Shown here in pieces: positions 28,200 through 61,921 of a stretch of DNA of 64,000 nucleotides (position 1 is the stretch's first letter; the number at the start of each line of letters is the position of its first letter). Position numbers and translations under genes: made by a program. Under the pieces are notes generated by a model. It was not told the DNA's origin, did no database searches, and saw only the letters and a list, made by a program, of their open reading frames with translations. The DNA is from a virus, in IMG/VR virus record IMGVR_UViG_3300042559_002030, positions 41,444 to 105,443 of that record. One strand, 5' to 3'.

Positions 28200-29828
28200 T
28201 TAAAGATTTTTGTGTATGAGTTTTGATTCAGTTTGGTAATGACCCCATACAACAATACCATGCTGGTTGATATGGTGTTGATGTATGTCATATTGTGTTG
28301 TTGCTTCTTTTATTGCGTGTGTTTTTAATTTACCCAGTATGTTTCTTACCTGAGAACTATTGTATTTTTCTACTAGATCTACACGACTAGTCAACTCGTT
28401 CCATTTTTTTGCTAGTATTTGAGCAGTCCATAAATCTAACATTTTCATTGTTTTATGACCAACCACCATTGGTAGCTTATAAAATTTGTCTGACAAACTG
28501 TTGCCAGACGCTAACTCGCTGTATAGTTCCCCAAGATCTGGCACCACATGAGACTCAAATGCAAAGTACACTTCCTTGATATCAAGCCCCCAGAATCTTT
28601 GATAAGCAGGATCAGCTGCTGGACTGTTTGGTAAAAATGACCAATTGGCCCATGAAGCTCTTAACAAGCCCAATTCAAAAAACTTAACATAAGAATTAAT
28701 TAGACTGTCAACTGTTTGCCCCGGTAACCCTAGTATGCATTGCAGTTCTGTCTTGCGAAATTTTTCAGGCGGTAAGTTATTTCTTAGATTGTTTGTCATT
28801 TTAACAATAGCTTCCCACGGAACTGCTGGACGATCGATTGCCTTTAATACATCTTCATCGGCATCTTGAAGATTGATCACAGGCGGAACATCATACACAA
28901 GACTATTTTGAGTAATAATATACTCGGTTACATCTTTCTTGAGTTTGGGAGTGTTGTTCACTATAAAAGAAAAACTACGAGCAGGATCATATAAAGAAAT
29001 TGCATAATCAAACGCTTTTATGTCATCTGGCCATTGTCCAAAGTTGGCATCTGTTTCTCGTATGGCCACATTTAGTCGATGGAACAAATCAATATCGTGT
29101 TTCCAGTTGTGTGTACGACGTTTGACTTTTTTAGTTAAATTTTGTGACCAATCACAAAATGTACAACTATACATACATCCTCGGGCAAATTCAATAGCCC
29201 AGTATTGGTCTTCGATTGGAATTCCGTAAGCTGCCAGATGATCACGCACTTCGGCCATATGAGCTTCTTGACTCACATAAGGACTTTGACTTAGGTAAAG
29301 TTCATCTGTCAACGTTTCGTGCGGATATATTTTTCTTACCCCATTGGCATTTTCAATAATGTTAACAAACTCGTCTTTATTGAACAGGAGCCCGGAATGA
29401 TAATCAATAATTTGCTGAAATGGTCGTTCGCCGTCGCCGTACACTACATAGTCTATATACGGATGGTTGATGAAAAAATCAACTTGGTTGTCAGTCTCTG
29501 TTTCTTTGTGTACCGATAGTTGCGGACCGCCGCAGACTATAATTATATCTGGTAATTGTTTTTTAACTTCTCTGGCAATGTGATATTGCAAGTCAAAGTT
29601 CCAAACATAGAATCCAAGACCCAAAATATCAGGTTGTTCTTGCACAATTTTATCAATTACAACATCCATTGGATCTAATAATACAATCCCAGGAAGCAAC
29701 CATTTTACATTGGGATTTTTTCCATGCAGTTCGTACCATTTTTGCATGTAGAGCCATGCAGGATTTACACTGACTTTTTCATGCTTGATTAGTTGTGTCA
29801 GACTATGCGAACAAAATTTTACTCTCAT
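28200..29828 (-). CDS. B12-binding-type radical SAM enzyme
   Basis: 542 residues. An N-terminal cobalamin-binding-like Rossmann domain (about 50-145: PDILGLGFYVWNFD, VCGGPQLS, DYVVYGDGERPF) lacks the DxHxxG of His-on binders. The radical SAM core has Cys218, Cys222 and Cys225 (CMYSCTFC) for its [4Fe-4S] cluster. The C-terminal part is long and family-specific. Substrate unknown; relatives methylate or rearrange unreactive carbons. It abuts iscA with no gap and is read after iscU and iscA, so its cluster may be built by those proteins. Confidence 0.88.
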   Translation of the reverse strand: MRVKFCSHSLTQLIKHEKVSVNPAWLYMQKWYELHGKNPNVKWLLPGIVLLDPMDVVIDKIVQEQPDILGLGFYVWNFDLQYHIAREVKKQLPDIIIVCGGPQLSVHKETETDNQVDFFINHPYIDYVVYGDGERPFQQIIDYHSGLLFNKDEFVNIIENANGVRKIYPHETLTDELYLSQSPYVSQEAHMAEVRDHLAAYGIPIEDQYWAIEFARGCMYSCTFCDWSQNLTKKVKRRTHNWKHDIDLFHRLNVAIRETDANFGQWPDDIKAFDYAISLYDPARSFSFIVNNTPKLKKDVTEYIITQNSLVYDVPPVINLQDADEDVLKAIDRPAVPWEAIVKMTNNLRNNLPPEKFRKTELQCILGLPGQTVDSLINSYVKFFELGLLRASWANWSFLPNSPAADPAYQRFWGLDIKEVYFAFESHVVPDLGELYSELASGNSLSDKFYKLPMVVGHKTMKMLDLWTAQILAKKWNELTSRVDLVEKYNSSQVRNILGKLKTHAIKEATTQYDIHQHHINQHGIVVWGHYQTESKLIHKNL

Positions 29829-37723: not shown

Positions 37724-37731
37724 TATTTATC
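37724..37731 (-). promoter_or_regulatory. Late promoter box GATAAATA
   Basis: GATAAATA on the minus strand, 22 bases before the ATG at 37701. Would serve 37701, 37466 and 35916. Confidence 0.55.
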
Positions 37732-37759: not shown

Positions 37760-38479
37760 TTAACTATATTGCGCGGCTAACGACAGTAATAATTGTTTGG
37801 TCGGCGGTTGGTCAATGTTGTTAATTGACCATAGTCTATTTTGAGATGTAAAATTATTTGCTAATTCATATTTGTGTATGCAATAGGTAAAAAACCACGG
37901 ATTTTTTAGTAATAGTGTGTCTTCGATTACATCTACAATATCTTCCATACTGGATCTGTCTTGATCCAATTCTACGGGTAACTGCAATCCTTCGTATGTT
38001 TTTCTAATAGTTTCCCGGCTGTCATCAAATTCAATTTGAAAATATTTGTATAAAATATCACTTAAATAGTTTTTATCTAACAATTGGTCAAAATCAATAA
38101 TATTTGTATAACAGTTAGATTGTATATCTTTTGTGATCAAATCATGGTATTCTATTATATTGTGGTAACAACGGTCGTACCAAAACACTGTATCAGCATG
38201 CCAATTGTCTAATACCGTAAAACAATACTGTTCGTCTATTAGCTTTTTCATAAAGTTATTATATATTGCTGAATAGATTTTTTTAGTAGGCAAGATCCTT
38301 AATGCCAAATCAAATTCCAATGTATGATCTTGATAATTGTTGTTATGGGTCAGCGTGATACCACTTGCTTTATGATTTTCAGACATTCTGAATCCAACAC
38401 CATGCAAACTACTATTTAAAATTATAGACTTTAAATAGTGTCCGCTGTGGCCTTCTCGAAATACTATAACTGTTTTCAT
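37760..38479 (-). CDS. Unknown protein, sulfotransferase-like start (cassette gene D)
   Basis: 239 residues, AT-rich DNA. The N-terminus MKTVIVFREGHSGHYLKSI resembles the phosphate-binding loop of PAPS-dependent sulfotransferases or kinases (beta strand, R-x-G-x-S/G-x-x-L). The rest is helical with many aromatic residues (FWYDRCYHNI, LLKNPWFFTYCIHKYE). Last gene of a four-gene overlapping cassette with a radical SAM enzyme (ATGA overlap). Sulfotransferase-like is only a suggestion. Confidence 0.72.
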   Translation of the reverse strand: MKTVIVFREGHSGHYLKSIILNSSLHGVGFRMSENHKASGITLTHNNNYQDHTLEFDLALRILPTKKIYSAIYNNFMKKLIDEQYCFTVLDNWHADTVFWYDRCYHNIIEYHDLITKDIQSNCYTNIIDFDQLLDKNYLSDILYKYFQIEFDDSRETIRKTYEGLQLPVELDQDRSSMEDIVDVIEDTLLLKNPWFFTYCIHKYELANNFTSQNRLWSINNIDQPPTKQLLLSLAAQYS

Positions 38480-39504
38480 GAAAATATAATGTTATAAAGA
38501 TCTGGATTGAATTCTTTTAACGAGGTGTTATGCAACTGATCGTGTTTTACAATTGTTTGTCTTAAATTGGTGAGATCCGTAATAGTTGACCTATTTTTAA
38601 CAGCAGCCCATGCCCGACTGTAAACTTCCCGATGTTGACCAATGTGTTCTTTCAGTGCCATTGGCAAGTTGTCAAGACTGTATGATCCAGATACGTAGTG
38701 ATCTATTAATTCAATAGGGTCACCAAATTTACTAGTCAGATGTTGCTGGTGCCATTTATCTAGTAGGTGCAAACGATTAATATTAAGTAATCCAATTGTA
38801 CGATTTATAGCAGGCATGACCGTATGTGGCATATCTTCTAAAAAAATCTTCCAGTTGGTTTCCCATTGGTTCCACCGCGATGGCCAACGTTGATATTCAT
38901 GTCCTGTACCGATATCATCTAAACTAAATCGAACCCTTACTAAAGCAAACTGTAGGAAAAAATCTATTAGTTTTGAATTTAGTTTGTGTGATCCGTTTGT
39001 ACTAAGTCGTAAAGTTATTTTAGAAAAATCACATCGGTCCGACAATTGTTCTATGTACTGTTTAACATTATTGTTTAAAAACGGCTCGCCACCTGAAAAA
39101 TTAATTTCTTGCACCTGTGATAGGTCAATTTTATTAAATTTAGTTTTAAAATCTGAAAAATTCATGTTAAAATTTGAATTGATTTTAACATTTTCAAGTT
39201 TTGCCCAGGTAGAGCTAGAATGAGATCCACAGATTTTACAAGCTAGATCACAATTTCTATTAGGATATACATCCACTACTATAGGCAACGAATGATTGTG
39301 TTCTAGCCCGTATATCTGATTGGCTCCTTGCCGATAGGAAAATATATTATTATTTTCCTGATCTATACAAGCACGGCAACCAACTGGGTCAACACTGTCA
39401 GATGTATATGTTGCGGGGTCTGTTTGATTGTAACAACATGTTCCAAATCTACTACCGTCATGACTAACCGTCAATCCGTGTTGTATTAACACACACCGAG
39501 TCAT
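38476..39504 (-). CDS. Twitch-type radical SAM enzyme (cassette gene C)
   Basis: 342 residues from the ATG at 39504, which overlaps the stop of the upstream gene (ATGA). The N-terminal Cys set (Cys4, Cys23/24, GCRACIDQE with Cys43, Cys46) is the auxiliary-cluster region of phage-type twitch proteins. The radical SAM core follows: NRNCDLACKICG (Cys85, Cys89, Cys92), SSSTW, FSGGEPF, LSTNGS and FSLDDIG. Twitch or SPASM radical SAM enzymes often modify peptides or proteins; the substrate here is unknown. Directly downstream of replication genes gp41 and gp61. Confidence 0.88.
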   Translation of the reverse strand: MTRCVLIQHGLTVSHDGSRFGTCCYNQTDPATYTSDSVDPVGCRACIDQENNNIFSYRQGANQIYGLEHNHSLPIVVDVYPNRNCDLACKICGSHSSSTWAKLENVKINSNFNMNFSDFKTKFNKIDLSQVQEINFSGGEPFLNNNVKQYIEQLSDRCDFSKITLRLSTNGSHKLNSKLIDFFLQFALVRVRFSLDDIGTGHEYQRWPSRWNQWETNWKIFLEDMPHTVMPAINRTIGLLNINRLHLLDKWHQQHLTSKFGDPIELIDHYVSGSYSLDNLPMALKEHIGQHREVYSRAWAAVKNRSTITDLTNLRQTIVKHDQLHNTSLKEFNPDLYNIIFS

Positions 39505-40052
39505 GGCGAGACCACCCACAGAGTTGGATTAACAATCTTTATGTCAAAACTAACTTGTTCTTTCACCAATGAGTCTAAAGTAAATTTCAAATGATTATGT
39601 TGAATAAAAATAGGATAAAAATTTATTACAGTAACAGATTTGACCCACACGTTTAAAAAATTTACAAATTGAGTTAAAGTTGCATATTTTAAAAACCAAG
39701 GAAATTTAAAAACTATCGTTTCATCTGTTGGAATGTAGGTTGGGCGATGCGTAAGAATATCAGGCTCAACATAGCACCCGGGAAAGTATTGTTTAGATAA
39801 CATATCACTTTCTAAACAAGTTGTGTTGATATCAAACTCTTGAAAATACCAGCCGGCGCAATCAACTGCTACCAGTTTATTATTTTTTAAATTGTCCAGA
39901 ATCCATCGATCAGTAAAATCAAGTTTATACGGAATTCCGTAACGAGTCGCACGCCATTTTTTAACAGCCGGGCGAGACAAATGATATAATCTGAATTGCT
40001 GAATCAGACGAATTGGTCCAAAGTCTGTGCTATAACCAGGTACTATTTGCAT
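39501..40052 (-). CDS. Unknown protein (cassette gene B)
   Basis: 183 residues, AT-rich. MQIVPGYSTDFGPIRLIQQF, RYGIPYKLDFTDRWILDNLKNNKLVAVDCAGWYFQEF, FPGCYVEPD, then a strand-rich half ending LWVVSP. The VAVDCAGWYF segment and alternating strands suggest an alpha/beta fold (glycosidic or Rossmann-like), but no motif is diagnostic. Coupled to the radical SAM gene by ATGA overlap, so it is a likely partner or substrate-handling protein. Confidence 0.75.
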   Translation of the reverse strand: MQIVPGYSTDFGPIRLIQQFRLYHLSRPAVKKWRATRYGIPYKLDFTDRWILDNLKNNKLVAVDCAGWYFQEFDINTTCLESDMLSKQYFPGCYVEPDILTHRPTYIPTDETIVFKFPWFLKYATLTQFVNFLNVWVKSVTVINFYPIFIQHNHLKFTLDSLVKEQVSFDIKIVNPTLWVVSP

Positions 40053-40537
40053 AATCCGTAACAGTCCATTGGATGTGCAGCGACCATATGATTCCCGTCG
40101 ACTTGATCAAAAGTGTGCAATCTTTTAAATTTATTATTGCAGTGATGCATAATAGTGTCTAAACTATCGTTAATCTCATTGAACAATGTAATATTTAAAT
40201 CATGCTGTACAACTTCATAACGATTGATTGCTACATAAGCATATTCGCATTCACTTGTTAATTGTTGTATGGTATTTACCAATGACTGTGTGGTTTGTTG
40301 TTCCAGTACTGGACCAAATATTATCACACCGTTGTACTTGTCGTTGTTGATCGTAATATGCTCTTGACATATTTTTTTAAATTTAGTGTCTGGTGCTGCC
40401 CACCGCCATACCACATCAGTGCATGTTTTTACAAAATTTAACATCACCGATTCTTGCTCTAATATTGTGCATGTGCCAGTGAGATTTTTAAATCCGTTTA
40501 ATTGCTGATCTCTCCAGAAATTATGGTCAATGGTCAT
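40043..40537 (-). CDS. Unknown protein (cassette gene A)
   Basis: 164 residues, AT-rich. MTIDHNFWRDQQLNGFKNL, VVWRWAAPDTKFKKICQEH, NGVIIFGPVLEQQTTQSLVNTIQ, and ending HPMDCYGLCK with two Cys. Overlaps gp41 (ATGA) and gene B (10 bases). The Rossmann-like IIFGPV strand and NTIQQL helix hint at an alpha/beta fold. The Cys pair at the C-terminus could be a ligand or a modification site. Unassigned. Confidence 0.75.
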   Translation of the reverse strand: MTIDHNFWRDQQLNGFKNLTGTCTILEQESVMLNFVKTCTDVVWRWAAPDTKFKKICQEHITINNDKYNGVIIFGPVLEQQTTQSLVNTIQQLTSECEYAYVAINRYEVVQHDLNITLFNEINDSLDTIMHHCNNKFKRLHTFDQVDGNHMVAAHPMDCYGLCK

Positions 40538-41943
40538 GCCTGCTTGATTTGTCCAAGTAATTGTTTTAGTTTAGCACTTTGTACATCTGCTGTGATTTTG
40601 CTTATTTCGCCTGTGTCGCTGTCAATCTTTTCTGTTGGATTGTTGATGCGACTTTGCGGCTTGATGCTGTCGTAAATGCTGGGCTTTTTAACGGATCCGC
40701 TGCTGTTGTCATCATCACCGCCGTTGTCTGTGATGCGCATGGTGTCAATGTTGTACTCTAGATCGACCTTTTGTCCAACACCGGTACTGCTGCGACTTTT
40801 CATACACTGTATCTGATACTTGCCGCGTTCTTTCATGGCACGACTGGTAAAGATACCAAACACATTGTCTGCTGTGTTGATCTTTGAGATACCACCGGAT
40901 ATGTGACTGTGATCAAATTCAATTTCTTCCACAGCCGATCGATTCAACTGCGATGCTGTTACAAACAACACATTCAATTCTTTGGCCAGGTTGCGCAGTT
41001 CTTCACTCACATACTTGTCTTTGACAAACAAGTCGTTGGGACTGACTTTGGCACTGACCGGCATCAGCAGGTCCAGATAGTCGCACATGATAAAATCCAC
41101 ACGGATACCAGTTTGTATCTGTACTTCTTTGATGTAACTTCTAATGTCGTTGATGTTGCTCTGTGCCGGCAAGGCCTTGACGCGATACTGACCAAACTTC
41201 TTACCAGTCATTTTGACTTTTAATGTTGCTGTATCAATATCCTTGCGAATGTCCTTGGTACTCATGTTGGTCAACATGGCGTCAGTTCTCAAACTGGTAA
41301 GTTCTTCACTCAATTCAAGACTGATATACACACCCGAAAGTCCTTGCTGTAACCAGTTCAATGCAATGTTCATCATTACCAAACTTTTGCCTGATCCTGA
41401 GCCACCGGCAAAAATGTTCAGTTCGCCACGACTGAATCCACCATACAACAACTTGTCCACTTGTGGCCAACCTGTGCTTACTTGTCCACCTGAATTGAAG
41501 TATCGATTAATTCGAGCAGCAGGATCAGCAAAGTAATCAGTGCCCATGTCTTTTGTTAGACTGATCTGTACTGCATCTTTGATCAGTTTTTCTACAGGAT
41601 CATACTCGCCTTTTTCCAATAGGTCAGCACTTTTTAAAATGGCCCGCTCAAGTTCTTGACGTCTAGTAAACGCTTCAAACTCAGTCATGAACCACTCGTA
41701 GTGTCCTTCGTTCAGGTCTGGCACTGCGGCCAGTTTAACTCCGGTTGTGGCCGAGATTTGTGTGCGATCCGGCAAGGTCTTGTGTTTTTCAGAATGCTCT
41801 TTGATGAACTCTGCTGCTGGTCTTAGACTGCGATCAAAGTTGGCCGGATTATAAATGTTCTGTACCCGCACATAGCTGGCAGCATCTTCCAGCATCATTT
41901 CCAGAAACAATCTCTGTACATCTAATCCGTATTCTTTAAGCAT
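40534..41943 (-). CDS. Replicative DnaB-like helicase (gp41-like)
   Basis: 469 residues. RecA-type ATPase with Walker A GGSGSGKS, Walker B-like RVDFIMCDYLDL, the Gln sensor TASQLNR and the arginine-finger region MKSRSSTGVGQKVD. N-terminal helical domain for hexamer and primase contact. Unwinds the lagging-strand template at phage forks, like T4 gp41 (475 residues). Overlaps the primase gene by 8 bases; the AT-rich cassette A-D follows in the same transcript. Confidence 0.95.
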   Translation of the reverse strand: MLKEYGLDVQRLFLEMMLEDAASYVRVQNIYNPANFDRSLRPAAEFIKEHSEKHKTLPDRTQISATTGVKLAAVPDLNEGHYEWFMTEFEAFTRRQELERAILKSADLLEKGEYDPVEKLIKDAVQISLTKDMGTDYFADPAARINRYFNSGGQVSTGWPQVDKLLYGGFSRGELNIFAGGSGSGKSLVMMNIALNWLQQGLSGVYISLELSEELTSLRTDAMLTNMSTKDIRKDIDTATLKVKMTGKKFGQYRVKALPAQSNINDIRSYIKEVQIQTGIRVDFIMCDYLDLLMPVSAKVSPNDLFVKDKYVSEELRNLAKELNVLFVTASQLNRSAVEEIEFDHSHISGGISKINTADNVFGIFTSRAMKERGKYQIQCMKSRSSTGVGQKVDLEYNIDTMRITDNGGDDDNSSGSVKKPSIYDSIKPQSRINNPTEKIDSDTGEISKITADVQSAKLKQLLGQIKQA

Positions 41944-42928
41944 CTAGTAGTTCTCTTGGTCTGTTGATTTTCTTTTCAAGTTGTCGTTTCCGCAACTCAA
42001 TTTTTATCTTACTTGTCTCTCTTGATTGCAGTATAGTTAGCAAGGTTGGCAGCTTTCCCCACAGTTTCACAGCGTCATTGACGTCTTTTACTTGGTCTGG
42101 CCAATCAGGAATACTCACTGCCCACCCCAACTCTACTGCACGGTCTATCAGTGCAAGTCCTGCTGAATCTTGATCCGGCACCACTGTGACATCGCGACCT
42201 AAACTGCGTATCAATCTTACCTGCTCGTCACTTATCTCATTGTGCATCACTGCCAGCCCACCAATGCATAACGCATCAAAGATGCCTTCGGTCACAATCA
42301 CATGTTGCCATCCTGTTTGCTGTAGATCCATGCCAAACACATAGCCCCGGGGCATGTCATTGATGTAGCGTGGATTACGATTGTCTAAAAATCGTATTGT
42401 ACTGCCTACAACTCGGTTGTTGTATGTGAATGGCACTACAACACCTTCCCTGAAACCCGGCTGTACTACCATTACAGGATAATCTTCTGGCACATGTCTG
42501 CTTTGTAGGTATGCCCATTCTTTAGGAGTATCGGGTGTTACAAAATCTACAAAATCAGGAAGATCTGCTTCTTTGAATTCTATTGGTGCCAACTGGTTCC
42601 ACACACGCTGACGATCCTCCAGCATGCCTTCCATGCTGCGATGGCGCATGCTTTCAAGATTGATTTGATTGATGTCGTTTTCTGGAACGCCTAACCATTC
42701 AAGCAGTCGACGTGCTTTGAAACTGATATTGCGTCCCAGTATGAAACTTGCAGTGTATCCACAGTTGAAGCAGTGATAACTCCAGCCTTGTTCGGAAAGT
42801 TTAATGCCGCCTCTGCTTCTGCGATCTGGTGTGTTGCCGTTGTGTACGCAACAGGGTGCATTGAAACTGAGCCATCCAGAACTAGACTGTTTTCTTTTTG
42901 CAGGTAAAAATGCCAACACATCAATCAT
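41936..42928 (-). CDS. DNA primase (gp61-like)
   Basis: 330 residues. Zinc-ribbon domain with CCVHN...CFNCGY (about 26-59), RNA-polymerase core with SMRHRSMEG, TOPRIM domain with VTEGIFDAL, VPDQDSAG and DVNDAV metal-binding motifs. Makes RNA primers with the gp41 helicase. Length close to T4 gp61 (342). Promoter at 42935-42963 lies just upstream. Confidence 0.93.
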   Translation of the reverse strand: MIDVLAFLPAKRKQSSSGWLSFNAPCCVHNGNTPDRRSRGGIKLSEQGWSYHCFNCGYTASFILGRNISFKARRLLEWLGVPENDINQINLESMRHRSMEGMLEDRQRVWNQLAPIEFKEADLPDFVDFVTPDTPKEWAYLQSRHVPEDYPVMVVQPGFREGVVVPFTYNNRVVGSTIRFLDNRNPRYINDMPRGYVFGMDLQQTGWQHVIVTEGIFDALCIGGLAVMHNEISDEQVRLIRSLGRDVTVVPDQDSAGLALIDRAVELGWAVSIPDWPDQVKDVNDAVKLWGKLPTLLTILQSRETSKIKIELRKRQLEKKINRPRELLDA

Positions 42929-42934
42929 GTTAGT

Positions 42935-42963
42935 ATTATAACATGTTTTACTGCAACAATCAA
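42935..42963 (-). promoter_or_regulatory. Sigma70 promoter of the primase-helicase operon
   Basis: TTGATT, 17-base spacer, TATAAT on the minus strand; -10 lies 7 bases before the gp61 ATG, so the transcript is nearly leaderless. Would drive gp61, gp41 and the radical SAM cassette. Confidence 0.7.
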
Positions 42964-48559: not shown

Positions 48560-49246
48560 TTAGTTATTATACAATTTTTTATAGGAATTCACAACCATGT
48601 CTTGAAAACTGTTATCAAAGGATTGGTGTACAATTATGTGCCAGCGCGGCTGGTCACTGTTGTTTATCACTGCATGCTGATTTGAAATATCTAACCATAA
48701 CGCTTGCCCGGGAAAAAAAGGCACTGTTCCGTGTTTGGCCATTACAAACTGGCACTCGGTGGGCTGTGTAATTGCAATGTTGATTGCTGTCAATTTGGAT
48801 ATTGCGTAATCTTGATGAATGCTTATATATCCGCCGGGTTCAAGCAACATAACTCGAATTCTTTTAAATTGACCTCCGGGCCACTTAGTGGCAAAATAAT
48901 CCACAGTCAATGGCATACATTGTTGTGCTTCACTTGTCCATACATACGGTCGATTGTCATTGTAATAACTTTCTTCACGAGTAGCATCGTAACTCTTTCC
49001 GTGTATGCAAAAACTTTTCCAGCCGCGATGTTCTCCATAATTGTCCCGATGGTCTACCAACAACAATTCAATATTTTTGATTTCGTGCAGAATATCCTGA
49101 TACGGCACTGCAATGTCTAACTGCAACCATGGCAACCCAGAAGCGTTCATTATCCACTCAAAATCAGCAGAGGGATTGTACTCCGGCAACTGCAAATTGC
49201 AGTTGGCATATTTTTTAAACATCAACTGGCTTATTTCGTATTTCAT
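48560..49246 (-). CDS. 2-oxoglutarate Fe(II) oxygenase (Asp/Asn beta-hydroxylase type)
   Basis: 228 residues, AT-rich. The iron ligands are visible as His144-x-Asp146 (GGYISIHQDYAI) and His191 (NQHAVINNSD), with Arg201 for 2-oxoglutarate, and this order fits the aspartyl/asparaginyl hydroxylase family. It would hydroxylate a protein or small molecule with O2 and 2-oxoglutarate. Third gene of the overlapping cassette 51184-48560, and overlaps the 49215 gene by 32 bases. Substrate unknown. Confidence 0.78.
   Translation of the reverse strand: MKYEISQLMFKKYANCNLQLPEYNPSADFEWIMNASGLPWLQLDIAVPYQDILHEIKNIELLLVDHRDNYGEHRGWKSFCIHGKSYDATREESYYNDNRPYVWTSEAQQCMPLTVDYFATKWPGGQFKRIRVMLLEPGGYISIHQDYAISKLTAINIAITQPTECQFVMAKHGTVPFFPGQALWLDISNQHAVINNSDQPRWHIIVHQSFDNSFQDMVVNSYKKLYNN
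48566..48594 (-). promoter_or_regulatory. Sigma70 promoter of uvsW, inside the oxygenase gene
   Basis: TTGTGA, 17-base spacer, TATAAT on the minus strand; lies within the last codons of the 2OG-oxygenase gene and 8 bases before the uvsW ATG. Confidence 0.65.
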
Positions 49247-50384
49247 TGATTTTTAATTGAAAATTATTGTATTTCTCAACTGTGGTATGTAACAGTGTCC
49301 ATTTGTAGTTTAATATATTTGAACACCATATATTGTCATAGTCACTTATATTGTTTTCTAGCACCCAGTCAATTAGATTATCATTGCAAAACTCAACAAC
49401 TTTTGTTTTTTGCGCATGTTGCCAGTGACTGCTAAAATTCTCTTTCACTTGTTTTGTAAATCTGCTGTTGACATATTCAACAAACATTGATTGCTTTTTT
49501 AACTGCAATCTTTCCAATGGAGTGAGATTTGGATTATCTACTTCGTAGTGCTTTAAGTTATTTTGTGTTATAAAGTTCCAAACAAAATTTCCATAGTCTG
49601 TTCCGTCCCAAGTGGTCCAAAGTTTCTGACAAAAATCAATTTGTACACGGCTTATGTCAACTATTTGGATATGTTGCGTGGCAGCATTGATAATATTTAA
49701 GATCCAGTATAGGCCGGATCCAGGTGATACCAATTGTTTTTGTTTGATTTCGGTGATAGGTTCGTTGTTAAAAATCCATAACTGATTTTCGGCTATGTTT
49801 TTATAATCCTGGAACTGGGTCAGATCAATGGTGCCGTCATACAAAAAGAATTTTAAATCTCTAGCAGCATTGTTCCAGTTCACAACAGCTCGGTTACTTT
49901 GTAATTGTTTTGCTATGAGCCCTTGTCCAAATGCTGTAACAGTGTATTCTGCCACAGCCACGCCAGGTTTAATCCATAAAGGTGTATAATTGTCATGCAA
50001 ATTTTGATCGCTGCGCACAGGCACTGAATGAGACACTGTGCTAATTGAAAAATCCTCTGCATCAAATTTACCCAGATCCATAAACCAACATTGATCATCT
50101 AAACATACCGGCTGTCCTGGATGCCAAATCACATGTGCAATCAGTCCATAATGTGGATATGTATCAACTAATTTTTTCCACTGCTGCCAATCTATGAACA
50201 TGGTTCCGCTTTTGACGAACAGCGCAGACTTGTGCCCGTGCTGCTTGGCCCACAATACACCATCTGCCCAATTGTTACAAATAAAAACTTCTTGCCGGGT
50301 GGATTCCCCGTGTTTACCAAATTGTATGCCACTCAAAGTTTGATTTCTAAGTGGTCCGTCTAGAATGATCACTGGCCAAGCCAT
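49215..50384 (-). CDS. Unknown protein of the oxygenase cassette
   Basis: 389 residues, AT-rich, Trp-rich: MAWPVIILDGPLRNQTL, SALFVKSGTMFIDWQQW, LIAHVIWHPGQPVCLDDQCWFMDL, and a helical C-terminal third. The first 120 residues have alternating strands and helices and could be a Rossmann or glycosyltransferase-like fold; no DxD. Overlaps 48560 (32 bases) and 50384 (1 base), so tightly coupled. Not recognised. Confidence 0.72.
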   Translation of the reverse strand: MAWPVIILDGPLRNQTLSGIQFGKHGESTRQEVFICNNWADGVLWAKQHGHKSALFVKSGTMFIDWQQWKKLVDTYPHYGLIAHVIWHPGQPVCLDDQCWFMDLGKFDAEDFSISTVSHSVPVRSDQNLHDNYTPLWIKPGVAVAEYTVTAFGQGLIAKQLQSNRAVVNWNNAARDLKFFLYDGTIDLTQFQDYKNIAENQLWIFNNEPITEIKQKQLVSPGSGLYWILNIINAATQHIQIVDISRVQIDFCQKLWTTWDGTDYGNFVWNFITQNNLKHYEVDNPNLTPLERLQLKKQSMFVEYVNSRFTKQVKENFSSHWQHAQKTKVVEFCNDNLIDWVLENNISDYDNIWCSNILNYKWTLLHTTVEKYNNFQLKINEIRNKPVDV

Positions 50385-51184
50385 TATAAAGTAACCCTGA
50401 CAGGCACAGCATTATTTTTTAATTGTTCTTTTAACAAATCAAGTTGAGTTGTTTTTCCAAACACACTGACGCCGAATATGTTCTCGATGTTCCAGCTGGG
50501 TATATTCCAATGCTGTGTCCACTCATGTTGATAATGTTTCCACCAAGAAGAGAATTCATCGCATTGTTTGTTTTTTAATCGGTCCATGTCCTCAAGTGCC
50601 ACATATATCTTTGGTCTAAGTTTCAGCCAGGGCTTGGCCAATTCACACATTCTTTTTATGTCATTGGGCTCGTTGTTTATCCAATATGCGTACGGTGTCT
50701 TGCCCAACTCTGACCACTGCACATATATATCACCGGCTTGAATTGTTGTTTGAGTATTGATTAACCATTTTTGATCAATTGGTTTTTCTAGTAACCCAGA
50801 TTTTTCGCGATAGTCTATACAAAATACACCATTGGTTTTTTTGAAATACATTTCACACATGTGAATATGTTCGTGAAAATCTAACCAATCAGAATTACCA
50901 TTGTAATTTTTTTCATAGATTTTATGTATACTGTTAAAATACATCTGATCCTGAGCCAAACATTTTGAGCGATCAATAGGAACCGATACTCCATGTGCAT
51001 ACTTTATCAACTGCTCGACCAAATCTGTATAGGTTAAATTTTTTGTATAGTAAGGATTGTCCCAGGGCCTAAACGGTATTGATATCTTACTCAAATGTTT
51101 GTATATTTTTTGATAGGTCGTGGCCAATGGGCTATCATCTATAGACAGATCTATAACGCAATTGTTTGAAAAAATCAATTTCAT
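50384..51184 (-). CDS. Unknown protein of the oxygenase cassette
   Basis: 266 residues, AT-rich, aromatic. MKLIFSNNCVIDLSIDDSPLATTYQKIYKHLS, then PFRPWDNPYYTKNLT, DWLDFHEHIHMCEMYF, DIYVQWSELGKTPYAYW and FGVSVFGKTTQLDLLKEQLK. The HEHIHMC stretch could bind metal. First gene of the cassette, driven by a sigma70 promoter at 51191-51219. No family known to me. Confidence 0.72.
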   Translation of the reverse strand: MKLIFSNNCVIDLSIDDSPLATTYQKIYKHLSKISIPFRPWDNPYYTKNLTYTDLVEQLIKYAHGVSVPIDRSKCLAQDQMYFNSIHKIYEKNYNGNSDWLDFHEHIHMCEMYFKKTNGVFCIDYREKSGLLEKPIDQKWLINTQTTIQAGDIYVQWSELGKTPYAYWINNEPNDIKRMCELAKPWLKLRPKIYVALEDMDRLKNKQCDEFSSWWKHYQHEWTQHWNIPSWNIENIFGVSVFGKTTQLDLLKEQLKNNAVPVRVTL

Positions 51185-54666: not shown

Positions 54667-55431
54667 ATGAAAATAGTATTAGTAACCGGTGGATTTGATC
54701 CTGTGCATTCGGGACATATTGCCTACTTTAAAGCTGCAAAAACTCTAGGCGACATGTTGATTGTTGGCCTCAATAGCGATGAGTGGCTGGTTCGTAAAAA
54801 AGGTGCAGCCTTTATGCCCTGGAACGAACGACTCTGCATTGTTAATAATTTATCAATGGTTGACGAAGTTTATACCTTTGACGACAATGACGGATCAGCA
54901 AAACATTTTATTCAACAAGCAAGAGCACATTACCCCGATGCCGAACTGATATTTGCCAATGGCGGGGACAGAACCCGAGATAACATTCCAGAAATGGATG
55001 TGATAGATGCTAATTTATCATTTGTGTTTGGCATAGGCGGTGAAGATAAAAAGAATTCTAGCAGTTGGATATTGCAAGAATGGAAAGCACCCCGGACCGA
55101 ACGAGCCTGGGGATACTATCGTGTGCTGCACGAAGTGGGTGCCAACACCAAGCTCAAAGAGCTCACTGTGATGCCTCAGACCTGTTTAAGCATGCAACGC
55201 CATGATCTACGACAGGAGTTTTGGTTTGTGGCCGAAGGCACAGCCACAGTGTACACACTGGAAGACTCCAGCACAGACCGTGACGTCAAGTGCCAGCTTG
55301 ATGTGCATGAACACACTTTTATTGAATGTCGTGAATGGCATCAGCTGTGTAACGAAACTGATAAACCGCTGAAACTGATTGAGATCCAGTACGGCAGTGA
55401 CTGTGTCGAAGAAGATATTGAGAGAAAATAA
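54667..55431 (+). CDS. Cytidylyltransferase-cupin fusion
   Basis: 254 residues. N-terminal nucleotidyltransferase with TGGFDPVHSGH (His14-x-Gly-His17 of the CTP-transfer family) and the later ANGGDRTRDN and SSSWIL segments, similar to HldE C-domain, glycerol-3-phosphate and ADP-heptose-type enzymes. Residues about 155-254 form a cupin (WFVAEGTATVYTLED, CREWHQLCNETDKPLKLIEIQYG) like mannose-6-phosphate isomerase type II tails. A nucleotide-activated sugar or polyol is the likely product. Starts the plus-strand glycan operon. Confidence 0.85.
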   Translation: MKIVLVTGGFDPVHSGHIAYFKAAKTLGDMLIVGLNSDEWLVRKKGAAFMPWNERLCIVNNLSMVDEVYTFDDNDGSAKHFIQQARAHYPDAELIFANGGDRTRDNIPEMDVIDANLSFVFGIGGEDKKNSSSWILQEWKAPRTERAWGYYRVLHEVGANTKLKELTVMPQTCLSMQRHDLRQEFWFVAEGTATVYTLEDSSTDRDVKCQLDVHEHTFIECREWHQLCNETDKPLKLIEIQYGSDCVEEDIERK

Positions 55432-55432
55432 T

Positions 55433-56224
55433 TTGTTTTTTAAAAATGTTCTTTTTGATTCAATTCCAAAGAGTGACAATTTAGTTGTTTTTTCTTGCGA
55501 CGATAATTATTTTAAAAAATACGGAATATATAATATTTTATCGTGTAACGACACCAATCAACCAGTGCATGTACACTTAATTAATCCATCACTGGATTCA
55601 GTGTTGACTTTAAAAGCAATAATAGATAAATTACAGATTCCGCTATCGTGGTCTACTGAGTACTTTGAAACGTCAAATTTAAATTTTTATCTATTAAAAA
55701 GTTATTATTACATGGCTAGATTTTATCTTTCTAATTATATATTTCAACACACTTCTGTAACTTGCATTAAAATCGTCGATGCTGATATTATCTTTAATTC
55801 TTTAATTAGCTTTCCTGAATCAGTTAATATAGGAATAACTTATAAAAAACAAAAAAACACCGCTTGGGAAAGAACTGCTGCTTATTTTTTATTTTTAACA
55901 TCATCATATAAAAATTTTCTTCCAAAAGTCATTGATCTATACGAAGAAAAAATAAAAAATATAGATTTTTTAAAAGTTGAAAAAATAGAAAACAAAATAG
56001 AAAAAGCTAATTTTACAGGACTTGATCAGGTGTGCTTAACTGAAATTTTAGAAAACGAATGCATTTATCAAAATCAAGATTTTTTAAATTTAGGATCTCT
56101 ACAATCATTTTCTAGCAAAGGCCCTGATGCAAAAATTTGGGTATTGGTCGGTAAAACTAAAAAATTGTTACCAGACGACTATCTACCAGTTAAATACAAA
56201 AAATACTTTGAAAACATACAATGA
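55433..56224 (+). CDS. AT-rich putative glycosyltransferase
   Basis: 263 residues if it starts at the TTG at 55433, just after the previous stop; the open frame continues upstream inside the cytidylyltransferase gene. The DNA is far more AT-rich than its neighbours (about 28 percent GC in the line 55441-55500). VVFSCDDNYFKKYGIYNI, VHLINPS and CIKIVDADIIFNSL (DxD) suggest a GT8-like glycosyltransferase; TWERTAAYFLF-type C-terminal part. Likely a recent import. ATGA overlap with the next gene. Confidence 0.7.
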   Translation: MFFKNVLFDSIPKSDNLVVFSCDDNYFKKYGIYNILSCNDTNQPVHVHLINPSLDSVLTLKAIIDKLQIPLSWSTEYFETSNLNFYLLKSYYYMARFYLSNYIFQHTSVTCIKIVDADIIFNSLISFPESVNIGITYKKQKNTAWERTAAYFLFLTSSYKNFLPKVIDLYEEKIKNIDFLKVEKIENKIEKANFTGLDQVCLTEILENECIYQNQDFLNLGSLQSFSSKGPDAKIWVLVGKTKKLLPDDYLPVKYKKYFENIQ

Positions 56225-58722: not shown

Positions 58723-59357
58723 ATCCAGTGTTGCGCCACCAATGGATGATGCAGCATAGTGCTGGGTTTTTGATTATTTTTTCTAAAATGTAATATTTTA
58801 ACCAATTCAAGATTGTCTAACTGTCGTTTATGTGCAATCTGCATCCACTCAGTAGGTAAGAAATCAGTGAATAATTCATGGTCAACATGCTGGCTTATCA
58901 GTGCTTGATCACCGTACAGCGGCACCTGGCCATACAAAGATTTCCAGTGGTCCAATGGACGAGATTGATATATTTCCCATAAGTGACTGTGGTCACCTTG
59001 CCACCACATCATGGCACTTGAGTGAATGTGTTTGTCTGCTTCATACCACATTACAAAAGTTTTGGATTGGCAAGCTGAAACAATTTCATCTATGTTTGAA
59101 CAAATTACAGTGTCAAGATCCAGATACAGCACAGGTTCAGAAAACACCCCAGGCTTGAACAACTGTAGTTTTGCCCAAAATCCTGTACCAGTTGCATCCA
59201 ACGGGATTCGGTCAACTGCAACTTCACAGTCACTCAGACACACAAAGCGGTGGGGCACTGTTAAGTTTCTTGCCACTGCTCTCTGCAGTTTGGCAACCCA
59301 TTCTGCATCATAATTTACTTTGCCGCCGTGTCGCAGTACGCATACAACATTAATCAC
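58719..59357 (-). CDS. Glycosyltransferase with DxD, GT8-like
   Basis: 212 residues from GTG at 59357, which overlaps the stop of the methyltransferase gene; the ORF can be extended upstream but that would run deep into it. RFVCLSDCEV, PVLYLDLDTVICSNIDEI (DxD), SSAMMWWQGDHSHLW, YGDQALISQH. Similar to the 53898 protein; they look like duplicates. Donor and acceptor unknown. Confidence 0.8.
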   Translation of the reverse strand: MINVVCVLRHGGKVNYDAEWVAKLQRAVARNLTVPHRFVCLSDCEVAVDRIPLDATGTGFWAKLQLFKPGVFSEPVLYLDLDTVICSNIDEIVSACQSKTFVMWYEADKHIHSSAMMWWQGDHSHLWEIYQSRPLDHWKSLYGQVPLYGDQALISQHVDHELFTDFLPTEWMQIAHKRQLDNLELVKILHFRKNNQKPSTMLHHPLVAQHWI

Positions 59358-59892
59358 AATATTTCTCAAGCACCAGTAATCCAGATCCACGATTGCAATG
59401 TTCAACTATGTGCCATTGGTGATTTTCCGACAAAAAATCACAGGCCGCCTGAAACACACCAGGCCAATCAGTGGTATCATGAAAAATAATATATCGTTTA
59501 ACTTTGTTACTGTGTCGGGCCAGTTCAGCAGCAGTGTGCTTTTTTTTATGCACAGTATCAATAAACAACAGGTCAGTTGGTTCTATGTCTACGGCTAGAC
59601 TATCACCTATGATGAATTCAAAATCAATTTGATGTTGTGTTGCATGTTGGTTAAGTCTGTCCAACACTGTGAGATTTTCATCAGTGATGTCATAGCTACG
59701 CAATTTTTTTGGATTGCCAGCCAAGAATGCAGCAGTACTCAATCCAGTGTACACTCCAAACTCTACAATGCTGTCAACTTTGGCCGCGTATTTTGTGTAT
59801 GTGTCAAATCGGCTAGGACTGTCGCCTAACCAATCAGTTGGAGTTATTTTTAAAGATAAAAAATCATCTCGTAGTTGTGTTATAGTTTTCAT
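59350..59892 (-). CDS. Class I SAM methyltransferase
   Basis: 180 residues. SIVEFGVYTGLSTAAFL (motif I), SYDITDEN, IDFEFIIGDS, DLLFIDTVHKKKHTAAEL (motif IV-V) match Methyltransf_24-type enzymes found in glycan or cephalosporin-type clusters. Likely methylates a sugar or amino sugar in the island. ATGA overlap with 59889 gene. Confidence 0.82.
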   Translation of the reverse strand: MKTITQLRDDFLSLKITPTDWLGDSPSRFDTYTKYAAKVDSIVEFGVYTGLSTAAFLAGNPKKLRSYDITDENLTVLDRLNQHATQHQIDFEFIIGDSLAVDIEPTDLLFIDTVHKKKHTAAELARHSNKVKRYIIFHDTTDWPGVFQAACDFLSENHQWHIVEHCNRGSGLLVLEKYCD

Positions 59893-60434
59893 TTTTTCAT
59901 CCAGTATACACCTAATTTACTTTTTCTACTTTTAAGGTAATGATGTTTTATATAATGGGACCAGGTGTCCATCACTTCTGCATGGCTCCAGTCATCCTTT
60001 ACATGCGCCTCGTAAGGGTTGTCGTATGCATGTTCGTCTTGCGGCATGTGTACAATTGGAATGCTCGCAATCAACACATCCGAAACTGACAAAATTTTAT
60101 CTACCAATGTCATTGCCTGTTCTTTTGTGATATGTTCCAGTACATCTCCGGCAATTACAACACTAACAGGTCCCAGAGCTTCCCAATTTACTTCACGCAC
60201 ATCTTGATTAATAATTTGATCGTATCGCTGTTCTAGATTGTATTTTTTTATGTATGGCTCCCATACTTCTATACCAATCCAATAAGCAGAGTTGCAGCAG
60301 TTGTGTTGTTCTTTAATGAGATTGACGTAGGTACCAGACCCGGGTCCAATGTCAACAATTTTTGTAATTTTTTCATGGTGTTCTTGAAACCACGCAAGCG
60401 TTTCTGATTTACCTGTTTTTAAACTGTATGACAT
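59889..60434 (-). CDS. Class I SAM methyltransferase
   Basis: 181 residues. KIVDIGPGSGTYVNLI (motif I), YWIGIEVWEPYIKKY (acidic motif II region), VVIAGDVLEHITKEQ (motif IV). A small methyltransferase of the type in polysaccharide clusters; could act on sugar, lipid carrier or protein. Coupled to its neighbour by ATGA. Confidence 0.82.
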   Translation of the reverse strand: MSYSLKTGKSETLAWFQEHHEKITKIVDIGPGSGTYVNLIKEQHNCCNSAYWIGIEVWEPYIKKYNLEQRYDQIINQDVREVNWEALGPVSVVIAGDVLEHITKEQAMTLVDKILSVSDVLIASIPIVHMPQDEHAYDNPYEAHVKDDWSHAEVMDTWSHYIKHHYLKSRKSKLGVYWMKK

Positions 60435-60437
60435 TGA

Positions 60438-61118
60438 TTAATTTTCCTTATCCCAAATTTTAGTTTTAATGAGGCTGGATCTACCGTGTGTTCTTTCTCT
60501 ATCCTGTGCCTGTCCCATCATGTAATTATGTATTTGAATTTTTACTATGTATTGATTTATTGCGTTGTCTGCCGGCAGGAATGATTGATGATAAAAATCT
60601 ACAAGTTTCTGTGCAGCATGTGGTTTTATTGCATAGCCGGCGGCGCCGGGAAGGCTGCTGCGTTGATAGTATTCAGCTGTGGGATCACCTGTAGGAGATT
60701 CTAAATAATGCTTGTATTTTTCCATTTTCTTAGTATGACTACTAGCCAGAATCAAAACATCAGTCCATTCAACCGGGTAGTACGGGCGAATTACATGAGC
60801 ATCGTCTTCCCATATTACAATGGGTTGATCAGAGTTTGCACAAAGTTTCCATAGTCTGTAATGACTATCAAAACATCCGACTATGCCCGGAGTTGTGCGG
60901 TCTTGCTTGCACTGATCCAAAAACGGTACATCGGGTCCTTTAAACCCCCAAGGATGGCACTGTCGATTATTTTTTTGATATTGTATCAGTGCTTGATCTC
61001 CGTAAGAGCCTTCAAACAATTCGGCTTCTATTTTAAAATTAGACAGTTCTTTTTGTAAACGAAGGCCACTATTCAAACTTGCAGGAATATTACTTAAACA
61101 AATGATGTAGCTTTTCAT
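60438..61118 (-). CDS. Glycosyltransferase family 25 (LPS-type)
   Basis: 226 residues from the ATG at 61118 (ATGA overlap). YIICLSNIPASLN, GIVGCFDSHYRLWKLCANSDQPIVIWEDDA, YPVEWTDVLIL and PGAAGYAIKPHAAQKLVDF are the GT25 pattern (e.g., LPS and collagen galactosyltransferases): retaining enzymes with EDD-type acidic motif. Fits addition of galactose or glucose to a surface glycan. Confidence 0.87.
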   Translation of the reverse strand: MKSYIICLSNIPASLNSGLRLQKELSNFKIEAELFEGSYGDQALIQYQKNNRQCHPWGFKGPDVPFLDQCKQDRTTPGIVGCFDSHYRLWKLCANSDQPIVIWEDDAHVIRPYYPVEWTDVLILASSHTKKMEKYKHYLESPTGDPTAEYYQRSSLPGAAGYAIKPHAAQKLVDFYHQSFLPADNAINQYIVKIQIHNYMMGQAQDRERTHGRSSLIKTKIWDKEN

Positions 61119-61921
61119 TGCCAATACGCCTCTGTTCTTTTAATTTTTAAATCGCTTAATTTACTACGACCCAATGACTTGCGATCACCTTTCAAGTGAT
61201 CTAGATAGGCACCCCATTCACTGTTGATCAACGGATGGCCTTCGCCCGAAATCAAATGGCTACTCCAATCGTGTTGTTCCAACGTCATTGATTTACGCAC
61301 AACATCAAACACAAAACTGTCGTGCCATTCTTTCATGGTGAATATTCCGTTGTCTGCATCGTCGTACACACGCTGAAACTCTTTGAGAAATTTTGATGTG
61401 GCCGGAGAACGCAGATTCATAGCATACAACCCGCATTCGGTGTATTTGCCTTTGCGACCCAAGAAACAAATGTCAGCTGCGGCGGGACACAAATTGTGTA
61501 ATTGCGCCATCGAGATAGGACTATGACACACAGTGTCAGCATCCATCCATATCAGCCAATCAGTTGCAGCATGGGCAGCAGCAAATATAGCATATACTTT
61601 GTGAGCAAAGCGTACAGCATTCCATTTGAATCCTTTGGCAGCGTCTTTGCGGTTGTTTCTTGTGGGGTCAGCAGACACATCACCATTGGCCTTGGGAACA
61701 CCGCGCCATTTTGTTTTGAATGCCACTAGTTCTGGACTGTCCCGATGCAGATCTAACACACGCAAGTTGGGTGCAGATTCAACGACAGTGCAATCTTCAG
61801 CATACACTATCAAGTCAACTTCTGCAGGCCATGTGTTCAGGAATGTTTCGATCATTCTTTTGCCGTATTTTTTGTAGCCAGATGCGTTGAATGTGGTGAC
61901 CACAGAGAATTTACGACTCAT
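61115..61921 (-). CDS. Glycosyltransferase-like phage protein
   Basis: 268 residues. FSVVTTFNASGYKKYGKRMIETF, WLIWMDADTVCHSPI (DxD), FKWNAVRFAHKVYA and ECGLYAMNLRS. This type is common in marine T4-like phages next to glycan genes. A ribosome site AAGGAAAAC precedes it. Donor and acceptor unknown. Confidence 0.82.
   Translation of the reverse strand: MSRKFSVVTTFNASGYKKYGKRMIETFLNTWPAEVDLIVYAEDCTVVESAPNLRVLDLHRDSPELVAFKTKWRGVPKANGDVSADPTRNNRKDAAKGFKWNAVRFAHKVYAIFAAAHAATDWLIWMDADTVCHSPISMAQLHNLCPAAADICFLGRKGKYTECGLYAMNLRSPATSKFLKEFQRVYDDADNGIFTMKEWHDSFVFDVVRKSMTLEQHDWSSHLISGEGHPLINSEWGAYLDHLKGDRKSLGRSKLSDLKIKRTEAYWQ

Follow-up and report, generated by a model that had tools for sequence, protein, structure and literature searches.

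T4-like phages rich in radical S-adenosylmethionine (SAM) enzymes, including phages that exchange such genes as modules, have been described before. The virulent Campylobacter phages CP220 and CPt10 encode 11-12 radical SAM proteins, and clusters that each contain five radical SAM genes replace each other at one site of their genomes, forming an "interchangeable module" (PMC2853527). The T4-like genome TARA_ERS488813_N000010, 183 kb in length, carries 12 radical SAM genes together with an Fe-S A-type carrier (PMC5332604), and in pelagimyophages added radical SAM cassettes set apart phages that are otherwise similar (PMC7029224). Here we analyze a cassette of four overlapping genes, termed A, B, C and D, of which C encodes a radical SAM protein, located directly behind the replisome genes gp61 and gp41 in a stretch of 64,000 nucleotides (hereafter the window) that spans positions 41,444 to 105,443 of the 105,443-base IMG/VR contig IMGVR_UViG_3300042559_002030. 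All cassette and flank genes lie on the minus strand, and a locus encoding identical proteins is present in a sister contig of 340,172 bases (G001). On its gene content, gp61 and gp41 both being present, the source is a T4-superfamily jumbo phage, and its closest isolates by gp41 are PA5oct-like Pseudomonas phages (53% identity) plus other phages of 285-490 kb.

The described systems resemble this locus in part. The clusters of CP220 and CPt10 are larger and include a glycine amidinotransferase, and the sections of the report that deal with them describe neither an A-B pair nor a site at gp41 (PMC2853527). TARA_ERS488813_N000010 is similar to G001 in combining many radical SAM genes with an A-type carrier; the genes behind its gp41 are not described in the corresponding part of the source (PMC5332604). 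Unlike the cassette studied here, those of pelagimyophages are found in the host-recognition cluster (PMC7029224). Among cultured phages, PA5oct (Arenbergviridae), Sinorhizobium phage Phosso and Vibrio phage 2.275.O share the order gp61-gp41-P82, where P82 is a small virion structural protein family, with gp41 being 44-53% identical; however, the interval behind gp41 is empty in PA5oct (40 nt) and 2.275.O (35 nt), and in Phosso it holds one 95-aa open reading frame (ORF). An earlier annotation of the window made from the letters alone (the sequence-only reading) knew of no named system with this gene set. None was found in the open-licence literature either, and the set A-D together with its site appears to be undescribed.

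Genes A (40043..40537, 164 aa), B (39501..40052, 183 aa), C (38476..39504, 342 aa from its ATG, with a GTG located 15 nt upstream) and D (37760..38479, 239 aa) are tightly packed, overlapping by 4 nt between gp41 and A, 10 nt between A and B, and 4 nt at both B/C and C/D, and 58 nt separate D from P82. The order, coordinates and gp41/A overlap proposed by the sequence-only reading were all correct; its range of 37760-42928 for the cassette takes in gp61 and gp41 themselves, and only A-D make up the cassette. The site is bordered upstream by a gp41-like DnaB replicative helicase gene (40534..41943; Pfam DnaB_C 9e-21, phrog_19 9.5e-69) and downstream by P82 (37453..37701; phrog_11854, 7e-16).

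A search with P82 returned at least 574 relatives, of which 80 were analyzed; slot contents were counted in the 69 that have both gp41 and P82 (60 distinct at 95% DNA identity). The slot is empty in 23 of the 69, with a gap of 28-62 nt, and filled in the remaining 46 by an interval of 0.77-3.6 kb, of which 36 hold at least one radical SAM gene, nine hold other cargo and one has no ORF. Of the radical SAM ORFs, 30 form a single large cluster that is related to C, and 10 belong to a different family with a weak SPASM match; the other cargo, named by motif only, includes GDSL/SGNH-like and D-like proteins. At locus L118, for example, a D-like protein is accompanied by an SGNH-like and a radical SAM gene, and aligns weakly with D over 177 columns (70%). 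Thus a variable slot with empty and alternatively filled states exists between gp41 and P82, and the claim that the cassette is inserted behind gp41 is borne out by empty sites in uncultured relatives and isolates alike. In PA5oct, genes near the slot are annotated as structural proteins detected by mass spectrometry. A protein with tandem repeats is encoded after P82 (35913-37466, minus strand), strongly variable in length and sequence among relatives.

The four genes are inherited jointly. In viral metagenome contigs, A and B overlap as a pair that stays invariant across about 20 distinct relatives; A adjoins B at every B locus that extends far enough, and D is beside A-B in nearly all. C is optional, being placed after D in L065 and missing in L008, L055-L057, L059, L060, L069-L071 and L078-L080. 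In L008 it is missing cleanly, as B ends at 1495 and D starts at 1492, giving a 4-nt B/D overlap (1486-1495), which may represent a natural deletion or a C-less ancestor. Among C-bearing lineages, the distance matrices of the cassette genes correlate at 0.93 (A-B), 0.90 (B-C), 0.92 (C-D) and 0.84 (A-C), and gp41 and P82 correlate with each other at 0.91. Correlations of A, B and C with the flanks (gp41, gp61 or P82) are about 0.4-0.6, and that of D about 0.2, the C-less lineages of D being very divergent. This joint divergence of the cassette genes, apart from that of the flanks, indicates that the cassette has been passed on as one unit and swapped between the backbones of different phages. 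B and D each occur as a single copy in ten records. Searches for A, B and D in phage isolates found none, and for C only remote radical SAM matches; a scan of genome contigs found no cellular homologues of B. In L069-L071 and L078-L080, a GDSL/SGNH-like ORF lies directly upstream of A and overlaps it, resulting in a four-gene SGNH-A-B-D set; this ORF is assigned by motif only, and the one tested has no Pfam or PHROG match.

One could argue that these genes are no functional unit at all, and that neighbours were merely gathered by chance in a permissive site, given that the slot takes diverse cargo and that C is cleanly missing in L008. However, gene order and overlaps are kept down to about 30-50% amino-acid identity, the divergence correlations reach 0.84-0.93, and the A-B-D set recurs at different places and on either strand, so that we regard a chance assembly as very improbable. 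The sequence-only reading had asked whether, in related phages, A, B and D might turn out to be single genes that have nothing to do with one another and stand next to other neighbours, and the outcome of the neighbourhood comparison speaks against that view. A-B-C-D is a real, old and exchangeable cassette in a variable slot.

The cassette is also distinct in base composition. The guanine-cytosine (GC) content of A, B, C and D is 0.35, 0.34, 0.36 and 0.31, compared with a median of 0.44 over the 76 ORFs of the window, and these four are among its seven lowest-GC ORFs; at 38221-38280, where a value of about 25% had been claimed, we measured 23%. The low GC does not point to a recent acquisition. 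In every relative examined, with proteins 43-80% identical, A-D have a GC of 0.31-0.42, while gp61, gp41, P82 and P622 of the same relatives are mostly at 0.43-0.52, and the slot radical SAM genes of other phages have a GC below that of gp41 in all 30 cases. Because the same bias is kept throughout, it is a lasting property, and a recent AT-rich insertion is rejected. Further cargo may be represented by the lowest-GC ORF of the window (0.27, 281 aa) and by two more AT-rich ORFs, of 266 and 389 aa, that have no match in Pfam; the regions concerned are 55379-56224 (plus strand) and 49215-51184 (minus strand).

Upstream of gp41 and outside the cassette lies the gp61-like DNA primase gene (41936..42928; phrog_47 DNA primase 5.5e-33, and synteny), preceded by a sigma-70-type promoter, TTGATT-17-TATAAT with a TG before the -10 hexamer (42935..42963, minus strand), that ends 6 nt before the gp61 start. 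Consensus promoter scans alone give many chance matches, and the argument is carried by conservation, a like sequence being present in the same position in most of the relatives inspected. At the other end of the slot, a late-type promoter GATAAATA (37724..37731, minus strand) is located 22 nt before P82, and a late-type motif NATAAATA is found 18-25 nt before P82 at 45 of the 46 filled loci and at 11 of the 23 empty ones. The window contains 10 NATAAATA motifs (e.g., at 37724, 11455, 8454 and 44152), nine of which are followed after 5-66 nt by the start of an ORF in the same orientation, as would be expected of T4-like late promoters; some are only 5-9 nt from the start codon, which suggests leaderless messages. 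Given the promoter before gp61 and the late-type motif before P82, A-D in this lineage are most likely the last genes of an early transcript that also carries gp61 and gp41, and co-transcription with helicase and primase, as originally proposed, is likely here. No RNA families were detected in the 34-46 kb region and no tRNAs in the window.

From the tight operon with helicase and primase, the sequence-only reading proposed a replisome-associated function, in which A-D, expressed together with these two, would act at the replication fork by modifying a protein or the phage DNA. The tight overlap with gp41 and the conserved sigma-70-like promoter before gp61 are consistent with such a role, as is the location of the cassette between gp61 and gp41 in three loci. 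However, a 4-nt overlap between the gp41 stop and the gene that comes first in the slot is seen in 27 of 43 cases and a 1-nt overlap in nine, whatever the cargo, and because unrelated cargo shares this overlap, the close link to gp41 belongs to the slot itself and is no pointer to a job at the fork. Moreover, the cassette runs opposite to gp41 in five lineages (L065, L069/L070, L078, L079 and L080), in three of which (L065, L069/L070 and L078) its own late-type promoter TATAAATA stands just before the first gene, no TATAAATA being found before the first gene in L079 and L080. A-B is also present in the contigs of L061-L064, fragments in which no gp41 homologue was found, and one third of the relatives have an empty slot. 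In addition, B lacks the catalytic motifs of DNA methyltransferases, and no gene of the thymidylate synthase family (PF00303; deoxynucleoside monophosphate hydroxymethylase-type), which would hint at base hypermodification, was matched in four records, some of them fragments. In the face of inverted copies with late promoters of their own, we consider action at the fork decidedly unlikely.

The predicted structures of A and B provide the main hint to the chemistry involved. An AlphaFold2 model of B built from 19 sequences (predicted local distance difference test, pLDDT, 89) shows the seven-stranded Rossmann-like arrangement of class I SAM methyltransferases, and the leading Foldseek matches in the PDB are 3cgg (E 3.5e-4) and 5cm2, the Trm9-Trm112 complex (E 1e-3), with methyltransferases leading in the viral library as well. 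In the alignment, D64, G67 and W68 after strand 1 and E81 at the end of strand 2 are invariant and D98 is nearly so; the motif I loop, expected as E/D-x-G-x-G, reads D-x-[AG]-G-W, with [AG]-G-W in place of G-x-G, and motif IV of DNA methyltransferases, the catalytic [DNS]PP[YFW] or PC, is absent. For A (pLDDT 86) the listed Foldseek hits are nearly all SAM-dependent methyltransferases, with a best E-value of 0.013, and a methyltransferase-like fold lacking the SAM loop is supported, if more weakly than the fold of B. The residues W8, R9, Q12, W44, W46, N105, R106, R139, H155 and D158 of A are invariant, and its alignment has no glycine-rich loop (motif I) after strand 1, where W44-x-W46 is found, so that A is probably a pseudo-methyltransferase. 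We infer that a catalytic B and a pseudo-enzyme partner A form an obligate complex. The Trm9-Trm112 complex and heterodimers of a methyltransferase with a pseudo-methyltransferase are comparable in view of the predicted fold of B, the apparently loop-less methyltransferase A and the constant encoding of the two as an overlapping pair; the putative A-B complex differs in having no sequence relationship to these proteins and a degenerate motif I in B. Profile-profile comparison revealed no mutual relationship between A and B, and searches of PDB sequences with profiles of A, B, C and D gave no meaningful match. Elsewhere in the window, at 59350-61124 (minus strand), two small overlapping methyltransferases (PF13578; PF13489/PF08241 below cut-off) lie beside a family-25 glycosyltransferase (PF01755); this pair (59350-60434) was unrelated to A or B in the three profile comparisons made.

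Gene C was taken for a twitch radical SAM enzyme by the sequence-only reading, and its membership of the radical SAM superfamily holds: PF04055 scores 30.1 bits over a cut-off of 29.5, and the CX3CX2C motif (C85, C89 and C92) is invariant in seven sequences, accompanied by GGEP. The twitch assignment is less firm. C resembles NF033640 (N_Twi_rSAM) over an alignment of 292 residues (147.3 bits, 6e-43) but stays below the curated cut-off of 170, and the first ~60 positions of that model are unaligned. Five further N-terminal cysteines (4, 23, 24, 43 and 46) are invariant and may hold a putative twitch-like auxiliary cluster, and C is, as far as motifs and family models tell, a divergent N-terminal-twitch radical SAM protein. 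The best model after N_Twi_rSAM is WgkB, a radical SAM family of peptide maturases (1e-9, far below cut-off). Pathways for ribosomally synthesized and post-translationally modified peptides (RiPPs) commonly hold methyltransferases next to radical SAM enzymes, and it might be supposed that C and A-B make a small molecule or RiPP-like peptide used against the host or competitors. However, neither the 58-nt gap between D and P82 nor the rest of the cassette contains a short precursor ORF, C is optional, and no transporter or RiPP recognition domain was matched, which makes such a product quite unlikely.

Viperin-type radical SAM enzymes produce modified nucleotides. A second supposition is that the slot genes serve in counter-defence or host take-over, where modification of RNA, proteins or nucleotides of the host would shield the phage. 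Accessory loci for defence and counter-defence typically combine a fixed site with variable cargo, the promoter is of early type, the second structural match of B is the tRNA methyltransferase Trm9, and C is weakly similar to prokaryotic viperin models (PADLOC, 2e-10). On the contrary, C fits N_Twi_rSAM (6e-43) far better than viperin (1.5e-8, far below cut-off), PADLOC gave no match for A, B or D, and Trm9 is just one among many methyltransferase hits. As a prokaryotic viperin, C scores 34.1 bits against an equivalog cut-off of 180, and 38 bits with PADLOC pVip. We place counter-defence second in rank and consider it unlikely.

D belongs to a family with a conserved N-terminal start of the E-G-x-S-G-x-[FY]-L type. 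Its G-x-S-G-x-[FY]-L portion resembles the start of sulfotransferases or P-loop proteins. Taken as a 5'-phosphosulfate loop, G-x-S-G-x-[FY] is missing the usual basic residue, and the arginine that might serve in a 3'-phosphate Arg/Ser motif, R61, is not invariant. The earlier description of a sulfotransferase-like start finds no backing in family models, as neither D nor its relatives match any sulfotransferase model in Pfam, NCBIfam or PHROG; none of 17 members has a sulfotransferase match in Pfam, and PF13469 gives no match on D in nine phage records. D itself matched no family model. D is related to the protein of L061:1095-1844 (98%). Comparison showed no relationship to the 'SGSHGHFLEY' protein of L056 or to the protein of L162.

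The explanation we rank first, and to which we give about an even chance, is that A-D is one of several alternative cargo cassettes of the gp41-P82 slot, tailoring a protein- or glycan-type target rather than acting at the fork. The slot lies between gp41 and P82 in large phages of the T4 superfamily, with P82 as the gene that would open a late virion operon, and its cargo would be expressed by read-through of the gp61-gp41 transcript and translational coupling, with cassettes being swapped via recombination in the conserved flanks. In the putative A-B complex, B would catalyze the reaction while A shapes the substrate site or stabilizes B, and A-B and D, joined in some phages by C for an additional step, would act sequentially on one target, for which the virion, the receptor-binding apparatus or the host surface are candidates. 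Tailoring is supported by the other cargo of the slot, which is likewise of tailoring type by motif (radical SAM, GDSL/SGNH-like and D-like), by the presence of two methyltransferases and a family-25 glycosyltransferase at 59350-61124 of the window, and by the pelagimyophage host-recognition cluster, which varies by radical SAM cassettes (PMC7029224). Several observations weigh against it. Early co-transcription with gp61-gp41 would be equally compatible with an early and a late target, the unusual motif I loop means that B may not bind SAM, and the Foldseek E-values of A are all above 0.001. Furthermore, the D homologue is ~6 kb away from A-B in L061-L064, L082 has a D homologue without A-B, and among the 80 P82 relatives (of at least 574) A-D is found only in the lineage of the window itself, all other occurrences having come from searches with A, B and D. 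That a heteromeric methyltransferase A-B together with D, and C where present, carries out an undescribed multi-step modification of one substrate, with gp41-P82 as a dedicated exchange slot, is a narrower proposal that we put forward only tentatively.

Some environmental jumbo and T4-like phages encode numerous radical SAM enzymes to which no role has been assigned, and slots that are empty or filled with different tailoring enzymes provide natural knock-outs and swaps, in which the target could be sought by comparing virions or infected cells. If the proposal for A-B is true, the pair would represent a new family of phage methyltransferases, one subunit of which has apparently lost the site for its cofactor. 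The sister contig G001 has 10 matches to NF033640 over the cut-off, with C and one more closely below it. Five of the 10, all of N-twitch type, follow each other in its 139-147 kb region (L045), in the vicinity of a NodU/NolO-like carbamoyltransferase gene and further ORFs without assignment. By eye, G001 also has an ORF resembling an A-type Fe-S carrier. Similar carrier-like ORFs and one IscU-like ORF, likewise assigned by eye, are found in phages of this group at L043:8703-9026, L065:87-440 and L065:1422-1796, as would fit a great need for Fe-S clusters. The window encodes a radical SAM protein of a different class as well, with a B12-binding domain (PF02310 and PF04055), at 28200-29828 on the minus strand.

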